A DNA stretch of 38,287 nt from positions 1 through 38,287 of the forward strand of contig JAQGLO010000205.1 of assembly GCA_028292825.1 (NCBI GenBank), read 5' to 3'. The stretch comes from Alphaproteobacteria bacterium. Its GTDB lineage: Bacteria; Pseudomonadota; Alphaproteobacteria; Micropepsales; Micropepsaceae. Of the stretch, positions 1,502 to 23,467 are shown in pieces. The notes under the pieces are model-generated. The model had not been told where the DNA came from and did not search any database. It saw only the letters and a list, made by a program, of their open reading frames with translations. The translations under genes were made by a program, and so were the position numbers. Position 1 is the first letter of the stretch. Every line of letters begins with the position of its first letter.

Positions 1502-3639
1502 TGATGTCGCGGAATTTCCTGATGGGCGCTGCGGCGCTGATCGGCCTCGGTGGTGCCTTGGCCTGGGCGCAGACTGCACCGAGCGGTGTGTACACGGTGG
1601 CGCAGGCATCGGCGGGCAGGGCGGTTTATGCGCAGAACTGCGCTGGTTGCCACCGCGACAATCTTGCGGGTGGCGGCGATGCACCGGCGCTTGGCGGCAA
1701 CGGGTTCATCAGTTCCTTCGGCGCGCGCTCGACAAAGGACTTGTACAAGTTCATCGCCACCTCCATGCCGGCCGGTGCGCCGGCCAGCCTCAGCGAAGCG
1801 CAATACACCAACGTCGTCGCGTATCTGCTGCAGGCCAACGGCGCAGTGGCGGGCGCGAAGCCCTTCGGCAAGAACACCGACATCAAGGTTTCCAGCATCG
1901 CCACCGGCAAGCGGCCGGCCAAGACGCCAAAAATAGCCAAGACCATCAACGACGCGCCGCTCAACCAGCGCACCGACCTGATGGCGCCGCCTTTCCAGCT
2001 GGGCCACACCGTCCAGGGCACGGTGAAGAACTATGTCGATGTCACCGACGAAATGCTGACTCATCCGCCGGACGGCGAATGGCTGATGTACCGGCGCAAT
2101 TACCAGGGCTGGAGCTTCAGCCCGCTGAAGGAGATCACCGCCGACAACGTCAAATCGCTGACGCTGAAATGGGCGTGGAACATGAACGAGGGCGGCGCCA
2201 GCCAGGTGACGCCCATCGTCCATGCCGGGGTGATGTTCCTCTCCAACACCTCCAACACGGTGCAGGCGCTGGATGCCAAGACCGGCGAACTGATCTGGGA
2301 AAACCGCATCGGGCCGGTGTCGAAGATCGCCTATGGCGGCACACGCAGCCTGGCCGTTTATCACGACAAGGTCTATGTCGCGACCACCGATGCCCATATC
2401 CACGCACTCGATGCGCGCACCGGCAAGATCGCGTGGGAGCAGGCACTGGGCAGCACCCGCAATTCCAACACGGGCGGCGTGATGGTGATGCGCGGCAAGG
2501 TGCTGACGGGTCTCACCGGCTGCGACAATTACTCTGAGAACAACTGCTATATCAGCGCTTTCGACGCCGACACCGGAAAGCGCGACTGGAAGTTCTTCAC
2601 CACCGCGCTGGAAGGCCAGCCGGGTGGCGACACCTGGAACGGCCTGCCCAACCTGCTGCGCGGCGGCGGCGATACCTGGATTGCCGGTACCTATGACCCG
2701 GAGCTGAACACGACCTATTGGGGCGTGGCCCAGACCAAGCCTTGGTTCCGCGCCAGCCGCAAGACCTACGGCGCTTCGACGCTCTATTCGTCTTCGACGC
2801 TGGCGCTCAATCCCGATGACGGCAAGCTGAAATGGTATTTCCAGCATGCGCCGGGTGAATCGCTGGATCTCGACGAAGTGTTCGAGCGCGTGCTGATCGA
2901 TCATGGCGACCAGAAGACGCTGATGACCATCGGCAAGCCTGGCATCCTGTGGAAGCTCGATCGTGTCACCGGCAAGTTCCTGGATGCCAAGGAGACAATG
3001 TTCCAGAACGTCTTCGCCAATATCAATCACCAGACCGGCGAAGTCACCTATCGCAGCGACATCATCAACCAGAAGACCAACCAGTGGCTTTCGTCTTGCC
3101 CGGGTCCGGAAGGCGGCCATGACTGGCAGGCCGTCAGCTACAACCAGCCTACAGACCTGCTGATCATTCCGCTCAGCCAGAGTTGCGTGATGATCCAGGG
3201 CCATGACGTGGACCAGAAGCTGGGTGGCGGCGGCACGGCCGCATCGCAGAAATTCTTCTTCATGCCCGGCACCCACCAGAACATGGGCAAGCTGGTCGCC
3301 TATCGCACTTCCGACATGAAGGAAGCGTGGTCCTGGCAGCAGCGTAGCCCGTTCCTGTCGGCGGTGCTGTCCACCGGCGGCGGCCTAGCCTTCGTGGGCG
3401 ACTTCAACCGCAGCTTCAAGGCGGTGGACGTGAAGACCGGCAAGATCATCTGGCAGACAAGGCTGGGCAACACGGTGCAGGGCTATCCCGTCAGCTTCAG
3501 CCTGGACGGCAAGCAGTATATCGCCGTCGCCACCGGCCTTGGCGGCGGCAGTCCGCAACAGAAGCCCACGGCCCTGCTGGACGAAGTGCATCGTCCGGCG
3601 ACCGGCCACCAACTCTATGTCTTCGGGCTGCCCGACTAG
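1498..3639 (+). CDS. Periplasmic cytochrome c-PQQ-dependent dehydrogenase (quinohaemoprotein)
   Basis: The 713-residue protein carries a signal peptide (cleavage near AWA-Q, about residue 25) and an N-terminal class I cytochrome c domain. The haem site is CAGCH at 48-52, and a likely Met ligand lies in TSMPAG near 90. A beta-propeller PQQ domain follows from about residue 190 to the end, with repeated tryptophan-docking motifs (DAKTGELIWE, DARTGKIAWE, DVKTGKIIW) and the GGGDTWIAGTYDPELN block. Haem c before the propeller is the order of polyvinyl-alcohol dehydrogenases; type II alcohol dehydrogenases carry haem at the C-terminus. It should oxidise an alcohol or sugar in the periplasm and pass electrons to its own haem. 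The substrate cannot be read from sequence. It is coupled to the CHRD gene by a 4-base overlap and converges on the cupin gene with overlapping stops. Confidence 0.9.
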   Translation: MMMSRNFLMGAAALIGLGGALAWAQTAPSGVYTVAQASAGRAVYAQNCAGCHRDNLAGGGDAPALGGNGFISSFGARSTKDLYKFIATSMPAGAPASLSEAQYTNVVAYLLQANGAVAGAKPFGKNTDIKVSSIATGKRPAKTPKIAKTINDAPLNQRTDLMAPPFQLGHTVQGTVKNYVDVTDEMLTHPPDGEWLMYRRNYQGWSFSPLKEITADNVKSLTLKWAWNMNEGGASQVTPIVHAGVMFLSNTSNTVQALDAKTGELIWENRIGPVSKIAYGGTRSLAVYHDKVYVATTDAHIHALDARTGKIAWEQALGSTRNSNTGGVMVMRGKVLTGLTGCDNYSENNCYISAFDADTGKRDWKFFTTALEGQPGGDTWNGLPNLLRGGGDTWIAGTYDPELNTTYWGVAQTKPWFRASRKTYGASTLYSSSTLALNPDDGKLKWYFQHAPGESLDLDEVFERVLIDHGDQKTLMTIGKPGILWKLDRVTGKFLDAKETMFQNVFANINHQTGEVTYRSDIINQKTNQWLSSCPGPEGGHDWQAVSYNQPTDLLIIPLSQSCVMIQGHDVDQKLGGGGTAASQKFFFMPGTHQNMGKLVAYRTSDMKEAWSWQQRSPFLSAVLSTGGGLAFVGDFNRSFKAVDVKTGKIIWQTRLGNTVQGYPVSFSLDGKQYIAVATGLGGGSPQQKPTALLDEVHRPATGHQLYVFGLPD

Positions 3640-16755: not shown

Positions 16756-17196
16756 TCATGCTTTGGCTGCCCCCTGTTGCAGCGCCTTCGCCCGCGCCTC
16801 GAAGGCCTCGGTCATTTTCAACAGGACTTTTTCGAAGGCCGCGCCCGCGACAGCGCCCAGGATTCGATTCCGGAAGGCAAAGTCTATGGCGAAATCCACT
16901 TCGCAGTCATCGCCGGACGGCGTGAAGCGCCAATGGTTCTCCAGTTTGCGGAACGGGCCATCCGTCTGCACCACATCGATGCGGCGATGTGCGGGGTCGA
17001 GCGTGACGCGGCTGGTGTATTTTTCACGGAAAGAGCCGTAGCCCACCAGCATCTCCGCGATCACGCCATCTGCGGTGCGCGATTTTACACGCAGGCCCGC
17101 GCACCAGGGCAGGAATTCGGGATAATGCTCGACCTCCGCCACCACGCGGTACATCAGGTCCGCCGGATAGGGCACGATCCGCGTTTCGCGATGCAT
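16756..17196 (-). CDS. ratA: RatA/COQ10-family START-domain protein
   Basis: The 146-residue protein belongs to the SRPBCC/COQ10 family: it begins [20 protein letters not shown], continues VEHYPEFLPWCAGLRV and ends with an amphipathic helix. Members are annotated either as ubiquinone-binding COQ10 homologues or as RatA, which inhibits 70S ribosome assembly in E. coli. In alphaproteobacteria, next to lipA, the COQ10-like respiratory role is more likely. No partner antitoxin is present. Its ATG overlaps the lipA stop by one base (TGATG), so it is translationally coupled to lipA. Confidence 0.9.
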   Translation of the reverse strand: MHRETRIVPYPADLMYRVVAEVEHYPEFLPWCAGLRVKSRTADGVIAEMLVGYGSFREKYTSRVTLDPAHRRIDVVQTDGPFRKLENHWRFTPSGDDCEVDFAIDFAFRNRILGAVAGAAFEKVLLKMTEAFEARAKALQQGAAKA

Positions 17197-18179
17197 CAGG
17201 TTTTGGCGGCCGATTGCTGGTTCAGCCGCACGGCCTTCAGCTCCGCGAAGTCGCTGTCGGCGTGATAGGACGAGCGAGTCAGCGGCGACGCCGACACCAT
17301 CAAAAATCCCTTGGCGCGGGCGATCGCTTCCAGGGAGGCGAATTCTTCCGGCGACCAGAAGCGGTCCAGACGGGCATGCTTCTTCGTCGGCTGCAGGTAT
17401 TGGCCGATGGTGAGGAAATCCACCCGTGCGGCGCGCAGGTCGTCCATCACCTGCATGATTTCCTCGCGGGTCTCGCCAAGCCCAACCATCAGACCGGACT
17501 TGGTGAAGCCGGTGGGCATCAGTTCCTTGGCCCGCTCCAACAGGCGCAACGAAGCATAGTAGCGGGCGCCGGGCCGGATTTTCAGGTAAAGCCGCGGTAC
17601 GGTTTCCAGATTGTGATTGAAGACTTCCGGTTGCGCCGCCATCAGGATCTCGATGGCGCCGTCCTTGCGGAGGAAGTCGGGGGTCAGCACTTCGACGCTG
17701 GTGCCGGGGCTCGTCGCATGAATGGCATCAATCACCTGGGCGAAATGCGTGGCGCCGCCATCTGCCAGGTCGTCGCGGTCGACCGACGTGATCACCACAT
17801 GCGCCAGCCCCAGCGTCTTTACCCCGCGCGCGACATTGGCGGGTTCTTCGGTGTCCAGCGCCCCAGGCAGACCGGTCTTCACATTGCAGAAGGCGCAGGC
17901 GCGGGTGCAGGTATCGCCCATGATCATCATGGTGGCGTGGCGCTTGGTCCAGCATTCGCCGATATTGGGACAGGCGGCTTCCTCGCAGACCGTGTGCAGC
18001 TTGTTGGCGCGCACGATCTCGCGGGTGACGACATATTCCTTGGACACTGGCGCCTTGACCCGGATCCAGTCCGGTTTGCGCTGGATGTCGTTGTCCGGCC
18101 GATGGGCCTTTTCGGGATGCCTGGGCACCGCCTCACGGGCCGGGATGTCCTTGGAAACTTTGTCGATCACGACGGTCAT
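17196..18179 (-). CDS. lipA: Lipoyl synthase LipA
   Basis: The 327-residue radical SAM enzyme inserts two sulfurs into protein-bound octanoyl groups to form lipoyl cofactors. The auxiliary cluster cysteines are C65, C70 and C76 ([12 protein letters not shown]). The radical SAM cluster is C91, C95 and C98 (CTRACAFC). The C-terminal RSS serine motif near 302-304 binds the auxiliary cluster. ATG 18179 begins [10 protein letters not shown]; an extended frame to 18242 has no support. An IS1595-family element is inserted with its duplicated target 70 bases upstream of this start, so the native promoter may be displaced. ratA follows and is coupled. Confidence 0.97.
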
Positions 18180-18248
18180 GTCCAAGATATAGCCGCCATC
18201 CCCGCCAAAATCATCACACACGGCGTCACGGCAGCCCTGCAATCTGGG

Positions 18249-18256
18249 AATGATAT
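18249..18256. repeat. Target-site duplication, left copy
   Basis: The octamer AATGATAT immediately precedes the left inverted repeat and is repeated exactly at 21387-21394 after the right one. Joining the flanks across one copy restores an uninterrupted spacer of about 150 bases between lipA and the gene at 21468. Confidence 0.95.
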
Positions 18257-18281
18257 CCCATTGTTATACTTGCCGTACCAA
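18257..18281 (+). repeat. Left terminal inverted repeat (IRL)
   Basis: It matches the reverse complement of 21362-21386 at 24 of 25 positions, differing only at position 16 (G versus C). Read outward toward lipA it contains TATAAC, a possible -10 element. Confidence 0.95.
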
Positions 18282-18285
18282 TGAT

Positions 18286-18645
18286 TCACGGTTTTTTGTA
18301 CGGAACGTCCGGAAGCTTGACCCAGAGAACAGTCGAGGCGCTGAGATATTCCTCCAGCGGATGCTCGCTACAAAATTCTCGAATCCGCTGCTTCTGCTCT
18401 AGCTGGCTTGTAGCGTGGAGATCTTTGGTGGCCCTCCCATTCACGTTGTTCGACGTGTTTAGCCCCGTCCAATATCCCAGTGTCCAATTGAAATAATGGT
18501 CTTCGACCGCGACGTTGCGCCCATATTCCTGAGCGAACTCGGCACATGTGCTAACCCCATAACCCATAGCAATGGCGGTTTGCTCAGCGTGGAGCGGCGC
18601 AGGCAGCGCCAGACAAACAACAATAAACCCAGCGAATACCCGCAT
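18286..18645 (-). CDS. Exported small protein, IS passenger (unknown function)
   Basis: The protein has 119 residues with a signal peptide (MRVFAGFIVVCLALPAPLHAEQ). The mature part has two cysteines (TCAEFAQEYG and REFCSEHPLEEY) around an aromatic core (HYFNWTLGYWTGLN). The pattern is reminiscent of small periplasmic HdeA or Rap1a/Tai-like proteins, but I cannot assign a family. ATG 18645 is preceded by GGGGAGGGG, a very strong ribosome-binding site; a frame extending to 18681 was not chosen. It lies just inside the left end of the IS1595-family element and is transcribed outward, its stop 4 bases from IRL, so its transcript would run on into lipA. Confidence 0.75.
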   Translation of the reverse strand: MRVFAGFIVVCLALPAPLHAEQTAIAMGYGVSTCAEFAQEYGRNVAVEDHYFNWTLGYWTGLNTSNNVNGRATKDLHATSQLEQKQRIREFCSEHPLEEYLSASTVLWVKLPDVPYKKP

Positions 18646-18869
18646 AAACCCCTCCCCAGAAGTCATAGCAGCATAGCCCAATTTCCCTGTGAATCCGACC
18701 TATGCTAGAAGCACCAAGGCCCGCGCCGTCCGGAACGGTCACGGGCCTTAGTTCACCCCGCCAAACAGTGGCGGGAGCTTCGCACCTAGTCTGGGGGCAT
18801 CGGCCAAGATGTTTCTCCCCTCAGTTCTAGGCTCTGGCGCGGGTATGTCTCCCGGCAGCTATGCGACGG
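18646..18869. other. Non-coding spacer in the element with two stem-loops
   Basis: The spacer lies between two leftward passenger genes. It contains a stem-loop at 18716-18749 (AAGGCCCG / CGGGCCTT, with an inner CCGT / ACGG) and another at 18757-18775 (CCCGCC / GGCGGG, 7-base loop). Neither is followed by a strong T-run on the - strand. They could end the P63C transcript or be structural elements of the mobile unit. Confidence 0.5.
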
Positions 18870-19904
18870 CTAGAAACCCTTCCCGGTATCGGTGGTGCCG
18901 TCATAATCGAAAGAAAGCTGCTGGGCTTTCCCCAGAGATTTCAAATCCTGGCGGGGGCGCAGCCTGTCCAGCTTCGACATGAAGTCGGGCCAATTGGTGC
19001 TCAACTGCATCATCGTCAACGTGGCACCAAGGTGCTCAAGAAGCTTCGGGTAGCCCTTGTTACGGGTGAGGTGCTGAAAAAGCTTCGATTTATGCCGCCC
19101 GGTTTCATCCTTCGGCGTCACGCGCTTCAATTCTTCAAGGACGTTGGGGGCGAGGCGCTTGTAAATGATCTCATTCGTCAGCACGCCGAAGTAACGCGGG
19201 CGCTGCACGGTGTCTCGGGGGTATTCCATGCCGCGAAGCCGAAAGATTTCTTCGTAATATTGTGGCGGAAAGGTCGAGATATAGGGCTGCAATTCTTTGG
19301 CGATGAACGCCTCAAGTATCTTGGTCAGCGCATCCTTGGCCCGGACGTTCTGGTATCCGGTGACTTCATCAACAAGGGCAATGATGCCGGTATGGGCCAA
19401 GCCGCGCATCAGAATCTCAGCGCGGGCGGCCACCGGGAACTGGATTTTGGTCAAGTCACCAGCATCGCGGGCCTTAAGCCACACTTCGCAAACCTTCGGA
19501 AGTAAGCTGGCCTCCAGCCCTATGCGGACCGGGCCGCCGCGCGGATCGCGGTAGTTTTTGGGCGTGGACACCAGGGTGCGTAAATCCGCAGAAATGTGGG
19601 GTTTAAGCGACGCGGCGACCAAAAAAGCGGGCAAATCACCGGAGTCGTTTTCGGCCTGTTTGCGCTTCTGCCAGCCGCCCGTTTCGGGTCCAAACGCACT
19701 GGTCACACCGCCTTGCGACAGCACCCGGGTGCCATCAGGGAGCACAGCGCAGGCCAGCACGGTGTTGCCAATTTTCAGCTCCCCAATATGCTCGGCCATA
19801 GGAACATCGCCAGCGGCGGCCCAACGCGCCGTAGCGGCCTTTTTGGCCCGCTCCTTGGTGTTCATCTTCCCCGCTGTATCCATCACTGCCTGCTTCTTAG
19901 TCAT
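18870..19904 (-). CDS. P63C domain-containing protein, IS passenger
   Basis: The 344-residue protein carries a P63C domain in its C-terminal third (about 210-310): IAKELQPYISTFPPQYYEEI, FRLRGMEYPRD, RPRYFGVLTNEIIYKRLAP and VLEELKRVTP. The N-terminus has a basic AKKAATARWAAAG helix as in other P63C proteins. The molecular role of P63C proteins is unknown. ATG 19904 has GAGG with good spacing; ATG 19916 lacks one. It is divergent from the transposase, sharing a spacer of about 95 bases, so both may be expressed from one control region. Its position between the inverted repeats makes it cargo of the element. Confidence 0.85.
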   Translation of the reverse strand: MTKKQAVMDTAGKMNTKERAKKAATARWAAAGDVPMAEHIGELKIGNTVLACAVLPDGTRVLSQGGVTSAFGPETGGWQKRKQAENDSGDLPAFLVAASLKPHISADLRTLVSTPKNYRDPRGGPVRIGLEASLLPKVCEVWLKARDAGDLTKIQFPVAARAEILMRGLAHTGIIALVDEVTGYQNVRAKDALTKILEAFIAKELQPYISTFPPQYYEEIFRLRGMEYPRDTVQRPRYFGVLTNEIIYKRLAPNVLEELKRVTPKDETGRHKSKLFQHLTRNKGYPKLLEHLGATLTMMQLSTNWPDFMSKLDRLRPRQDLKSLGKAQQLSFDYDGTTDTGKGF

Positions 19905-19944
19905 GCTTTGCCTCATATGCTTACCGTTTTAAAGTATTTAGTGC

Positions 19945-19972
19945 TTGTGAATTAATTTGGCAAGCATTATCT
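19945..19972 (+). promoter_or_regulatory. Putative transposase promoter
   Basis: TTGTGA (19945-19950) and TTATCT (19967-19972) are separated by 16 bases, in an AT-rich spacer upstream of the transposase. The transposase ATG at 20000 follows a GAGGA ribosome-binding site at 19988-19992. Confidence 0.45.
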
Positions 19973-19999
19973 TAGGCGGCATAGATCGAGGAATAGCCG

Positions 20000-20926
20000 A
20001 TGTCCAAGTCCGCCCTGAGCCGTCCCTACCTCCACGATGAAAAGGCAGCCTATGCCTTCGTGGAAAGCCAGCTTTGGGCCGATGGCCGCCCCTGTCCTCA
20101 TTGCGGCGTTCTGGACGAGAGCACGGCCCTGAAGGGCAAGAGCACCCGGATTGGCGTGTACAAGTGCCGGGCCTGTCGCAAGCCCTTCACGGTGAAGGTG
20201 GGCACGATCTTCGAGGCCAGCCATATCAAGCTGCACGTCTGGCTACAGGCGATTTTCCTGCTTTCCAGCAGCAAGAAAGGGATCAGCAGCAACCAGCTTG
20301 GCCGCTCGCTGGGGATCACCCTCAAGTCGGCTTGGTTCCTGTCGCACCGCATCCGCGCCGCCATGGCGGACGGCGGTTTGGCCGCGCTTGGTGGAGAAGG
20401 CCAGATCGTGGAAGCGGATGAAACCTACATCGGCCGCCGCAAGGGCCGCGCCGTGAAGCGCGGCGGCGGCTATCACAAGAACGCTGTTGTCAGCCTTGTT
20501 GAGCGTGGGGGCAAGGTCCGCTCGTTCCATGTGGACCGTGCAGACAAGTCCGCTGTGGCGCAGATTGTAATGGGCCATGTAGCCCCGGCCAGCCGCCTCC
20601 ATACCGATGAAAGCCGCCTGTACGCCGGCGCAAATGCCCATGTTGCTACCCACGAAACCGTCAACCACGGCAATCTGGAATATGCCCGTGGTGACGTCAC
20701 CACCAACTCGGTGGAGGGCTTTTTCAGCATCTTCAAGCGCGGCATGAAGGGCATCTACCAGCATTGTCAGGAAAAGCACCTGCACCGCTATCTCAGCGAA
20801 TATGATTTCCGCTATAACAACCGCATCGCGCTTGGCGTAGGCGATGAAGCCCGCGCCGCCATCGCGCTCAAGGGTGTTGTCGGCAAGCGGCTCACCTACA
20901 AAACAGTTGGTGGGGTACATGCCTGA
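20000..20926 (+). CDS. IS1595-family transposase (Zn ribbon, ISXO2-like)
   Basis: The 308-residue protein has an N-terminal zinc ribbon (CPHC at 32-35, CRAC at 56-59), a helix-turn-helix region (ISSNQLGRSLGITLKSAWFLSHRIR) and an ISXO2-like DDE-type catalytic domain. Candidate catalytic residues are D140 (EADETYIGRRKG), D203 (LHTDES) and N236/E239 (TTNSVEGFFS), followed by FKRGMKGIYQH. All motifs appear intact and no frameshift is seen. Inverted repeats, 8-bp target duplication and family motifs agree. Its last codons overlap the start of a small downstream gene by 8 bases. Confidence 0.95.
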   Translation: MSKSALSRPYLHDEKAAYAFVESQLWADGRPCPHCGVLDESTALKGKSTRIGVYKCRACRKPFTVKVGTIFEASHIKLHVWLQAIFLLSSSKKGISSNQLGRSLGITLKSAWFLSHRIRAAMADGGLAALGGEGQIVEADETYIGRRKGRAVKRGGGYHKNAVVSLVERGGKVRSFHVDRADKSAVAQIVMGHVAPASRLHTDESRLYAGANAHVATHETVNHGNLEYARGDVTTNSVEGFFSIFKRGMKGIYQHCQEKHLHRYLSEYDFRYNNRIALGVGDEARAAIALKGVVGKRLTYKTVGGVHA

Positions 20927-21086
20927 AAAGAAAGCCCCGGCTAAAAAGCCGAAGAACTACGCAAAACTATCTCAGAAAGAGAAGTTCATCGCGGCGGCGA
21001 AAGAGTTTAAGGCGGACGAGACAGGAAAGACATTCCTGGGCGCGTTTAAAAAAATTGCCAAGCACACGCCTAAGAAGAAGATTTAG
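20919..21086 (+). CDS. Small Lys-rich protein coupled to the transposase
   Basis: This 55-residue basic protein (MPEKKAPAKKPKNYAKLSQK, ending HTPKKKI) starts at ATG 20919, inside the last codons of the transposase in another frame, after a GGTGGGG ribosome-binding site. A lysine/proline-rich N-terminus precedes a predicted amphipathic helical segment (EKFIAAAKEFKADETGKTF). The 8-base overlap indicates translational coupling to the transposase. A DNA-binding or accessory role in transposition is a guess. It is easily missed because of its size. Confidence 0.65.
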   Translation: MPEKKAPAKKPKNYAKLSQKEKFIAAAKEFKADETGKTFLGAFKKIAKHTPKKKI

Positions 21087-21300
21087 ACGCCAGCGCTTCA
21101 TAGGCGAGAATCAGGGCGTGAAGATTATTCGCCCTGTACCGAAATTCCTCAGCAAGCTCCGTACTCTTGTTCACAACCATGCCCCTGTCTTGCTCCAGAT
21201 GCTGGGCCTTTCCCGTTTCCAGCTGCTCCGCATGGGTCTGCATCCATTCGACATGGTGCTGATAGGCTTCTTTCAGGGCTTGAAGGGCTTTATCGGGCAT
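21070..21300 (-). CDS. Doubtful small ORF near the right end of the element
   Basis: From ATG 21300 this frame encodes 76 residues (MPDKALQALKEAYQHHVEWM...), helical and Gln/Glu/Ala-rich. No ribosome-binding site is visible. The open frame continues upstream through IRR to a TTG at 21450 outside the element, so the start is uncertain. It converges with the Lys-rich ORF and overlaps it by 17 bases. It could be a third cargo gene with a phasin-like helical character, or a chance ORF. Confidence 0.35.
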   Translation of the reverse strand: MPDKALQALKEAYQHHVEWMQTHAEQLETGKAQHLEQDRGMVVNKSTELAEEFRYRANNLHALILAYEALASKSSS

Positions 21301-21361
21301 CTGATAAAATTGATCCGTGAATCTCTCAAATGTTTGCCAATCGACTATTTGCGAGCGGTTC

Positions 21362-21386
21362 TTGGTACGGGAAGTATAACAATGGG
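21362..21386 (-). repeat. Right terminal inverted repeat (IRR)
   Basis: This is the reverse complement of IRL with a single mismatch. Read outward (rightward) it contains TATAAC at 21375-21380. It is followed directly by the second copy of the target duplication. Confidence 0.95.
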
Positions 21387-21394
21387 AATGATAT
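21387..21394. repeat. Target-site duplication, right copy
   Basis: This is an exact copy of AATGATAT (18249-18256), adjoining the GGG end of IRR. Confidence 0.95.
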
Positions 21395-21467
21395 CCTAAA
21401 TTCGCATTTGGTTTGAACCGGAACTCAAGCGGCGCGTTGGCGAAGTTCAACCCATTCGGAGCATGTC

Positions 21468-21857
21468 ATGCCCGCTCGCAGTGCCTCGCCGCCCGTCCGC
21501 TCCCGCCGCCGCCCTGTGCGCGCGGTTGTCCAGGCCGCCGGCCATCCCTCCCAGCCCTCGTTGGCGACCAAATTGTTGGCACTGGCGAACACCCGCACGG
21601 CGCGAACCGCTTTTGTCATGATCGGCACCGCCGGCCTGGCGGCGCTGGCCATCGCAGTGGTCGGGCCCAAGCGGCTGGAAAAGGACGTCATCCGCCCCCT
21701 GCGCGGCGCCATCGAACCCCAGGCCGAAAAGCTTTGGGCGGACGCCAAGCCCCTGCGCGACCAGATTGCCGGCCTGTTCCAGAATGCGAGCCCAACCGGG
21801 CGCAGGAAGCTGGCCCGCAGTTTCCAGAGCTGGATCGGGCATTTTCACGCCACATGA
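21468..21857 (+). CDS. Small single-span membrane protein, unknown
   Basis: The product of 129 residues has a basic, Pro/Arg-rich N-terminus, one hydrophobic segment at about 49-66 (FVMIGTAGLAALAIAVVG) and an amphipathic C-terminal half (PLRGAIEPQAEKLWADAKPL, ending QSWIGHFHAT). ATG 21468 follows GGAG at 8-base spacing. I do not recognise a family. It precedes the acyl-ACP synthetase-like gene by 35 bases on the same strand and may be co-transcribed with it. Before the IS insertion it was divergent from lipA, sharing about 150 bases of spacer. Confidence 0.65.
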   Translation: MPARSASPPVRSRRRPVRAVVQAAGHPSQPSLATKLLALANTRTARTAFVMIGTAGLAALAIAVVGPKRLEKDVIRPLRGAIEPQAEKLWADAKPLRDQIAGLFQNASPTGRRKLARSFQSWIGHFHAT

Positions 21858-21892
21858 GGTAAAGACTCGTCCGAACCATCCGGACTCGAGTC

Positions 21893-23467
21893 ATGTCCAA
21901 CCCATCTGGAATGCCGCGACGTGTACCATTCGACATGGCATCGGCGCGGCGTTCGATTTTCCAGGCGCTGGCAGATGCGCGCGGGGAATATGGCGGCGCC
22001 ACCATCGCCCTGGTGGACGGCGATGATCGCGCCCTCACCTATGACGAGATCATCAGGGCCAGCTTTGCCCTGGGATCGGCACTGAAACCGGGGACGCGCA
22101 GCGGCGAATGTGTGGGAGTAATGTTGCCGACCGGCGCCGCGGCAACTTTGGCATTCTTTGCATTGTCGGCCTTTGGGCGCGTTCCGACCATGCTGAATTT
22201 CACCAGTGGGCTGGCGAGCCTGAAAAGTGCGCTGTGCACGGCTCAGGTGAAGCGTATCGTCACAGCGCGCCGGCTGATCGAGGTGGCGGGCCTGCAGGAT
22301 CTGGTCGCAGGATTGTCCGGCACCGAGATCATCTATCTTGAGGATGTCCGCAAGAAACTGTCCCTGGCCGACAAGCTGACCGCCGTAGCCGGCAAACTGA
22401 TGCCCCGAATGCTGTCCTCGCGGCCCGATCCGTCACGTCTGGCGGTGATCCTGTTCACCTCCGGCACCGAAGGCGAGCCCAAGGGCGTGGCGCTCAGCCA
22501 TCAGAACATATTGGCCAATGTGGCGCAGGTGCGCGCCCATATCGGAATCTATCCCGGCGATGTGATGCTGAATCCCCTGCCCGTCTTTCACTGCTTCGGG
22601 CTGGTGGGGGGTACCATCCTGCCGCTGATGGCGGGCGTGAAGGTCATCGCACACCCTACGCCACTGCAACCGCGGGAGATCGTGCGCCGCATCCGGCGCT
22701 ATGGCGCCACCGTTCTTCTGTCGACAGACACCTTCATCAACCAGTATGCCCGCGCCTCCGAGGCCGGTGATCTGGATACCTTGCGCCTGGCGGTGTGTGG
22801 TGCGGAACGGCTGCGCGACGAGACACGCGCTTTTGTCCGGCGGAAATGCGGCATCTCGCTGCTGGAAGGCTATGGCGTCACGGAAACCTCGCCTGTGATC
22901 TCAGTCAACCAGATCGAGACCAATCGCCCGGGTACGGCGGGACAGTTGCTGGCGGGCATGCAGGCGCGTGTCGAACCGGTGCCCGGCATATCCGGCGCCG
23001 GCGCGCTGTTCGTCAAAGGCCCCAATGTGATGCTGGGCTATATCAAGCCGGATGCACCCGGCAAGATCGTGCCGCCGGAGGATGGCTGGTACAATACCGG
23101 CGATGTGGTGGCGATCGACGATGAAGGCTTTATTGCCATTCGCGGCCGCCTGAAGCGGTTTGCCAAGATCGGTGGCGAGACCGTCTCCCTGGCCGTGGTG
23201 GAAAATATCGCGGCGGCCCTGTGGCCGGAGAACGCCCATGCCGCCGTGGCGGTGCCCGACGGCCGCAAAGGCGAGCAGATCGTGCTGGTCACCGACGCAA
23301 AAGATGCGCGGCGGGTGGATCTGCTCGGCTGGGCACAGAATCATGGGGTGCCTGAATTGTCGGTGCCCCGGCGCGTGCTGGTGATGGAGACGATACCAGC
23401 GCTGGCAACCGGCAAGACGGATTATGTCGCCGTGCAGAAAATGGCAGAAGCCGATCCAGGTCCGTGA
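21893..23467 (+). CDS. Aas-type acyl-ACP/acyl-CoA synthetase (AMP-binding)
   Basis: The 524-residue adenylate-forming enzyme has the P-loop LFTSGTEGEPKG at about 188-198, the A5 block LEGYGVTETSP, the A7 block GWYNTGDVV and the A8 block RGRLKRFAKIGGETVSL. Its sequence closely follows the synthetase half of E. coli Aas (for example LPVFHCFGLVGGTILPL, CGAERLRDETR and GVPELSVPR). Aas couples acyl-ACP synthesis to lysophospholipid reacylation, but the N-terminal acyltransferase domain is absent here, so an external acyltransferase would be needed. The C-terminal catalytic lysine is probably in ALATGKTDYVAV. It converges on the histidine kinase gene, 14 bases away. Confidence 0.85.
   Translation: MSNPSGMPRRVPFDMASARRSIFQALADARGEYGGATIALVDGDDRALTYDEIIRASFALGSALKPGTRSGECVGVMLPTGAAATLAFFALSAFGRVPTMLNFTSGLASLKSALCTAQVKRIVTARRLIEVAGLQDLVAGLSGTEIIYLEDVRKKLSLADKLTAVAGKLMPRMLSSRPDPSRLAVILFTSGTEGEPKGVALSHQNILANVAQVRAHIGIYPGDVMLNPLPVFHCFGLVGGTILPLMAGVKVIAHPTPLQPREIVRRIRRYGATVLLSTDTFINQYARASEAGDLDTLRLAVCGAERLRDETRAFVRRKCGISLLEGYGVTETSPVISVNQIETNRPGTAGQLLAGMQARVEPVPGISGAGALFVKGPNVMLGYIKPDAPGKIVPPEDGWYNTGDVVAIDDEGFIAIRGRLKRFAKIGGETVSLAVVENIAAALWPENAHAAVAVPDGRKGEQIVLVTDAKDARRVDLLGWAQNHGVPELSVPRRVLVMETIPALATGKTDYVAVQKMAEADPGP

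Follow-up and report, generated by a model that had tools for sequence, protein, structure and literature searches.

A passenger-bearing IS1595-family element with a P63C-domain gene, a family that alternates with BstA in insertion sequences and phages

Results

The element and its insertion site

The 38,287-nucleotide stretch analyzed here (the window; contig JAQGLO010000205.1 of assembly GCA_028292825.1, from an alphaproteobacterium of the Micropepsaceae) contains, at positions 18257 to 21386, a complete IS1595-family insertion sequence (IS) of 3,130 bp with an intact transposase, as seen from its ends, target duplication, and domain matches. Its left terminal inverted repeat (IR; CCCATTGTTATACTTGCCGTACCAA, 18257 to 18281, forward strand) is complementary at 24 of 25 positions to the right one (21362 to 21386, reverse strand), and the two copies of the 8-bp target site duplication (TSD; AATGATAT), at 18249 to 18256 and 21387 to 21394, match exactly. 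The uninterrupted site is found in a congener, G015, whose locus L242 reads CTGCATTCTGGGAATAATGTCCTTACC, versus CTGCAATCTGGGAATGATAT, element, and AATGATATCCTAAA in the window. Since this matching locus (lipA, followed by a small gene and a ligase) has a single copy of the site, AATAATGT, and no element, the element is an insertion directly upstream of lipA. An initial annotation of the window had already described this unit, with passenger genes and a size beyond that of a simple IS, and this description is borne out.

The transposase gene (20000 to 20926, forward strand, 308 amino acids) encodes an N-terminal zinc ribbon (PF12760, Zn_ribbon_IS1595; 38.7 bits, cut-off 25.4, E = 9e-10) and a DDE domain (PF12762, DDE_Tnp_IS1595; 116 bits, cut-off 27, E = 2e-33), with an NCBIfam IS1595 match above the cut-off (NF033547; 188 bits, cut-off 75, E = 1.5e-55). 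Across an 83-bp gap (19917 to 19999) lies, in divergent orientation, the passenger gene for a P63C-domain protein (18870 to 19916, reverse strand, 348 amino acids; PF10546, 100.5 bits, cut-off 26.1, E = 8e-29). A second passenger gene (18286 to 18645, reverse strand) encodes a predicted exported protein of 119 amino acids from an ATG at 18645, with an alternative TTG at 18681; it has no Pfam match, and a tblastn search of plasmids gave weak relatives on three Hyphomicrobiales plasmids (28 to 33% identity, best E = 3e-8). A small Lys-rich protein of about 55 amino acids (20920 to 21086, forward strand, from an ATG at 20920) overlaps the transposase stop, and a possible small gene absent from the initial list (21070 to 21300, reverse strand, 76 amino acids) is an open reading frame of no recognized family. 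PADLOC gave no match for any protein of the window.

Between the exported-protein gene and P63C lies a non-coding, G+C-rich, hairpin-like stretch (18706 to 18772), 78% identical to a stretch at the same locus in the congener G056 (L041:3811-3877) and recurring in another relative (G009:C57:25234-25381). It has no Rfam match; a scan of 17000 to 22500 returned nothing above threshold, and a sub-threshold snoRNA match was taken as chance.

The element is single-copy in its own genome, which is 82% complete. No near-identical copy was found among 100 related genomes, nor among plasmids searched with the transposase or the P63C protein. In a control search for ends (18-bp IRs with at most three mismatches), 24 control positions gave 0 matches. 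At the matching lipA-upstream site, G056 has a different IS1595 element (L041:1009-3440), with another left end of that kind immediately past the right TSD, at 3440, which suggests a target hot spot or insertion beside an older element. We rejected this element as an orthologue of the one in the window, because in each genome the two duplication copies match each other but not those of the other genome (AATGATAT versus AATGCTGT), and the cargo differs. At this lipA-upstream locus a further congener, G017 (L241), has an additional stretch of about 0.9 kb, between about 2529 and 3435.

An IS1595 lineage with varied cargo

Transposase relatives in related genomes (46 to 80% identity) sit in elements delimited by IRs and an exact 8-bp TSD, and the named IS1595 members among the plasmid matches are distant from the window transposase. 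About 20 relatives with TSDs span about 1.9 to 3.4 kb, with cargo differing from element to element (for instance L041, 2423 bp; L043, 2547 bp; L058, 2635 bp; and, on a plasmid, L077, 3413 bp; further delimited relatives are L169, L170, L175 to L184, L187, and L188, and IRs are weaker in L044, L169, L175, and L177). This cargo includes PIN-domain toxins (L176, weak; L187, 1e-13), GmrSD_N (L188), a SocA/Panacea antitoxin (L181), DUF3800 (L178), a Rap1a-type immunity protein (L184:5291-5650; PF18602, 9e-18), and many unknowns. Extra genes and about three times the minimal IS size are therefore normal for this lineage, and the size to which the initial annotation had pointed is ordinary here.

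The same annotation had listed an exported protein, a P63C protein, and a Lys-rich small protein as cargo, which holds for the first two and not for the Lys-rich protein. Homologues of the latter lie directly 3' of the transposase and overlap its end in the nearest relatives (L002/L041, L003/L042, L004/L043, and L006/L044), and these elements (L041 to L044) have neither P63C nor the exported-protein gene. Because of this overlap and retention, the Lys-rich gene is best assigned to the transposase module, as a core accessory gene of the element clade and not cargo. The start of a cargo protein in another relative (L187:5123-5560; KFKKAARELGCDEDESAFDEKLKQLAK) resembles the core motif of the Lys-rich protein (KFIAAAKEFKADETGKTFLGAFKKIAK). 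The exact combination of exported protein, P63C, and Lys-rich protein was found in the window only. Nor is this combination a fixed module: P63C is absent from units moved by sister transposases, and it travels in turn with transposases of other kinds.

P63C genes in insertion sequences and their alternation with BstA

We surveyed P63C in 69 genomes of the genus, 385 of the class, and 398 of the phylum, and found it in 30 genomes. When wider flanks were considered, 11 of these 30 had P63C enclosed by IRs that are flanked by an exact 8-bp TSD, versus 0 of 24 controls. IS1595 elements with P63C occur in G000 (the window), G336 (L045; 3398 bp, with P63C and a methylase-HNH gene), G318 (L056, decayed), G736 (L083), G732 (L084, with a DUF3800 gene), and G669 (L355), a genome from outside the window's class. 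IS1-like elements with P63C, so labeled because their transposases score 49 to 74 bits, under the NCBIfam IS1 cut-off of 100, occur in G007, G029, G003, G411, and G140 (L047, L048, L049, L052, and L054). In G216, P63C adjoins a transposase remnant, and a family search added a P63C element with four IR mismatches in G933 (L234). No IS ends were found around the lone P63C genes L046, L050, L051, L053, L055, L085, and L086 and most of those outside the window's class.

Comparison of L083 with L084 reveals 82% identity for the transposase and 90% for the DUF3800 protein versus only 29% for P63C, with sharp borders at the DNA level, and P63C is thus exchanged as a unit. In this lineage (ends GGGGCCTATATACTTAACTAGCCA), two elements with TSDs hold BstA in the P63C slot behind the transposase (L232:5511-6548, PADLOC 7e-110; L233:5383-6423, PADLOC 2e-119). 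BstA and P63C of the lineage begin with a similar leader, M-x-D/E-KK..I..P/S-I-D..F (e.g., MPDKKKDLIEPIDGSFDEVV versus MPEKKNLIEPIPDAFESVADAM). BstA of prophage BTP1 is an experimentally shown anti-phage (abortive-infection) protein with a KilA-N-like N terminus and a self-immunity DNA element, aba (PMC8585504). In BTP1, bstA lies between cI and N, and in the related phage ST104 P63C takes that position, next to sieB. P63C and BstA alternate, then, at two kinds of position that have nothing to do with each other, one next to the cI gene of phages and the other after the transposase of IS1595 elements. PIN toxins, GmrSD-type proteins, methylase with HNH, SocA/Panacea antitoxin, and Rap1a are further cargo found in elements of this sort.

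In a viral contig (L090:3178-5712), a C-terminal transposase remnant, a P63C 54 to 56% identical to that of the window, a methylase-Mrr gene, and, resembling the one of L045, a right end (CGGAATGTCCTAGTTTAAGG) adjoin the 3' side of a large-terminase-like gene; this stretch is the remains of an IS1595 element in a phage. In the open-text literature searched, no paper links P63C with IS1595. As far as this literature and the tools used show, the association of P63C with IS1-like and IS1595 elements, alternating with BstA, is new.

A repeated motif upstream of P63C genes

Repeated aTGCTTGCa motifs precede P63C genes. The 8-mer TGCTTGCA is present in 45 of 85 non-redundant P63C upstream regions and in 8 of 420 control windows drawn from the same loci (P = 2.5e-32); the k-mers were picked after the fact, and the effect is far beyond any correction for 8-mers. 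GCTTGC averages 2.1 sites per 350 bp upstream of P63C versus 0.28 in controls, with at least two sites, in both orientations, in 47 of the 85 regions. The motif occurs in phages, a Deinococcus plasmid, the IS1-like elements (not L049), and the IS1595 element L355, and it is absent where P63C is coupled behind the transposase (L045, L083, L084, L234, and L090). These sites are probably binding sites of P63C itself. Upstream of the Stx-type P63C (L098) a different repeat, ACGTGCA, was seen by eye, which suggests that sites are cognate to each protein.

In the window, the gap between P63C and the transposase holds the only exact ATGCTTGC in 38 kb, where about 2.8 are expected by chance. The half-sites are GCAAGCAT (19960 to 19967, exact) and ATGCTTAC (19917 to 19924, one mismatch), and two near matches within the 83-bp gap are reached by 1 of 2000 mononucleotide shuffles. 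A palindrome in the gap was set aside as evidence by itself (reached by 44 of 200 shuffles, not significant); it is the motif as seen across the family that carries the claim.

Family, fold, and phage contexts of P63C

P63C is very common in viral contigs, with at least 576 matches, and ranks among the most frequent of the phage gene families that have no assigned function. The window protein matches phrog_2384 (5e-112) and the anti-repressor Ant family phrog_2899 (3e-5), in which 12 of 19 members have the P63C domain. A structure model from 47 sequences reached a predicted local distance difference test (pLDDT) score of 81 and a predicted template modeling (pTM) score of 0.53. Foldseek against viral models placed Mx8 p63 first, followed mainly by BRO and repressor-domain proteins; against PDB it gave nothing with E < 0.08, and its best row, enolase, was rejected (template modeling score 0.13). 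A sequence search of PDB with P63C gave no match. VIA-align against PDB gave Z-scores of 5.9 for the CpGV Orf22 domain, 5.4 for DdrC, 4.4 for Dachshund, and 2.6 to 2.7 for APSES proteins. We tentatively predict a Bro-N/KilA-N-like DNA-binding N-terminal domain followed by the C-terminal P63C domain.

In phages, P63C lies directly after cI and in line with it, before sieB and ral (ST104), beside an integrase and a repressor and in line with both (Petra), or opposed to the direction of the lytic genes (SEN34).

Discussion

We interpret the window element as a transporter IS whose passenger is a DNA-binding gene of phage origin that resembles BstA, and hold with middling confidence that P63C works in phage defense or superinfection immunity. 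Defense activity, DNA binding, and regulation by P63C are what we infer from slot sharing, architecture, and motif, having observed the architecture itself, the recurrence in elements and phages, the slots shared with BstA, and the motif enrichment. The selectable function once suspected for the unit is plausible, a phage-defense or immunity role of P63C being the best supported. Several results weigh against this interpretation. All structural Z-scores are below 8 and the pTM is only 0.53; none of 47 family members has a Bro-N or KilA-N Pfam match, and hhalign of P63C against Bro-N gave a probability below 1% (no relation). The PADLOC BstA profile, which scores a true BstA at 1.9e-124, matches neither window nor phage P63C proteins, and in a profile comparison of P63C with BstA the alignment covered only 27 residues, with a probability of 2%. 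Just two motif copies occur in the window, one of them exact and the other a near match, and the P63C gene of an Stx phage is a neighbor of the anti-repressor Roi within the nin region, which fits a regulatory role.

Such a role figures in an alternative that we consider unlikely and yet the most serious: P63C, captured from phage anti-repressor-type genes, would control transposition of its carrier and have no part in defense. It would account for the divergent orientation of P63C and the adjacent transposase in the window, L047, L048, L049, and L054 (most of which have the motif in the intervening DNA), for the lineages in which P63C lies directly 3' of the transposase and overlaps it, and for the domain shared with phrog_2899. 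However, most elements with related transposases have no P63C, so movement does not need it; the motif also lies 5' of P63C in phages and plasmids without an adjacent transposase; and P63C is replaceable by BstA, a defense protein. Improbable, in our view, is that P63C acts as a phage anti-repressor that on entry inactivates resident prophage repressors, aiding element spread or competing with prophages; the phrog_2899 match and the neighboring anti-repressor gene in the Stx phage would fit, but the arrangements in ST104, Petra, and SEN34 suggest expression in the lysogen, where constant production would harm the prophage. About as improbable is that the genes for P63C and the exported protein represent neutral debris from phages, caught by chance in an ordinary IS1595: the abundance of P63C in viral contigs, some decayed copies (L056, L057, and L060), and the single copy in the window genome agree with it, but the P63C frame is intact and coding-like in composition, and P63C recurs in elements with at least four end types, always near a transposase and exchanged at a fixed slot.

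Under the interpretation as a transporter IS, the zinc-ribbon DDE transposase would act on the 25-bp ends, insert with an 8-bp duplication, and move anything located between the ends; the ends, duplication, and empty site are observed. P63C, as main and phage-derived passenger, would most likely act like BstA of prophage BTP1, and by protecting the host it would also protect the element. The upstream aTGCTTGCa sites may serve autoregulation, self-immunity, or both, analogous to the aba DNA of BstA, and with the window sites lying between divergent genes P63C may also regulate the transposase. More generally, and with somewhat less assurance, we propose that P63C proteins and the cognate repeats upstream of their genes form a system akin to BstA, for anti-phage action or self-immunity, and that IS1-like and IS1595 transposons are small, cassette-exchanging carriers of such genes between phages, plasmids, and chromosomes. 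Recurrence in IS elements, alternation with BstA, and upstream repeats together give the family a concrete candidate function. If this is true, IS elements of 2 to 4 kb, usually viewed as selfish or as resistance carriers, also shuttle defense and addiction genes.

With respect to known systems, the element shares with the IS1595 family a transposase domain above the curated cut-off, 8-bp TSDs, terminal repeats that enclose passenger genes, and an N-terminal zinc ribbon, which all IS1595 groups but IS1016 have (PMC8101967). Subgroups with passengers, ISNwi1 and ISNha5, belong to the family (for transporter IS such as ISNha5, Siguier et al. 2009, as cited in PMC11891212). The passengers cited there differ from that of the window element and comprise genes for transcription regulation, methyltransferases, and resistance. 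The window element is a new member of this transporter kind. The IS1-like elements L047, L048, L049, L052, and L054 resemble it in that P63C adjoins the transposase, mostly divergently, and in their 8-bp TSDs (at 2.7 to 3.9 kb), but differ in transposase family and in their ends (GGTAGTGTC...). The phage proteins (Mx8 p63, phrog_2384) show full-length homology (5e-112) and the same domain, whereas the window gene lies in a chromosomal IS and not in a phage. BstA of BTP1 resembles P63C in length, in a DNA-binding-type N-terminal domain, in its slots, and in conserved DNA near the gene start, whereas its C-terminal domain is not that of P63C and aba, with its CCCGCC ends, is unlike the P63C repeats.

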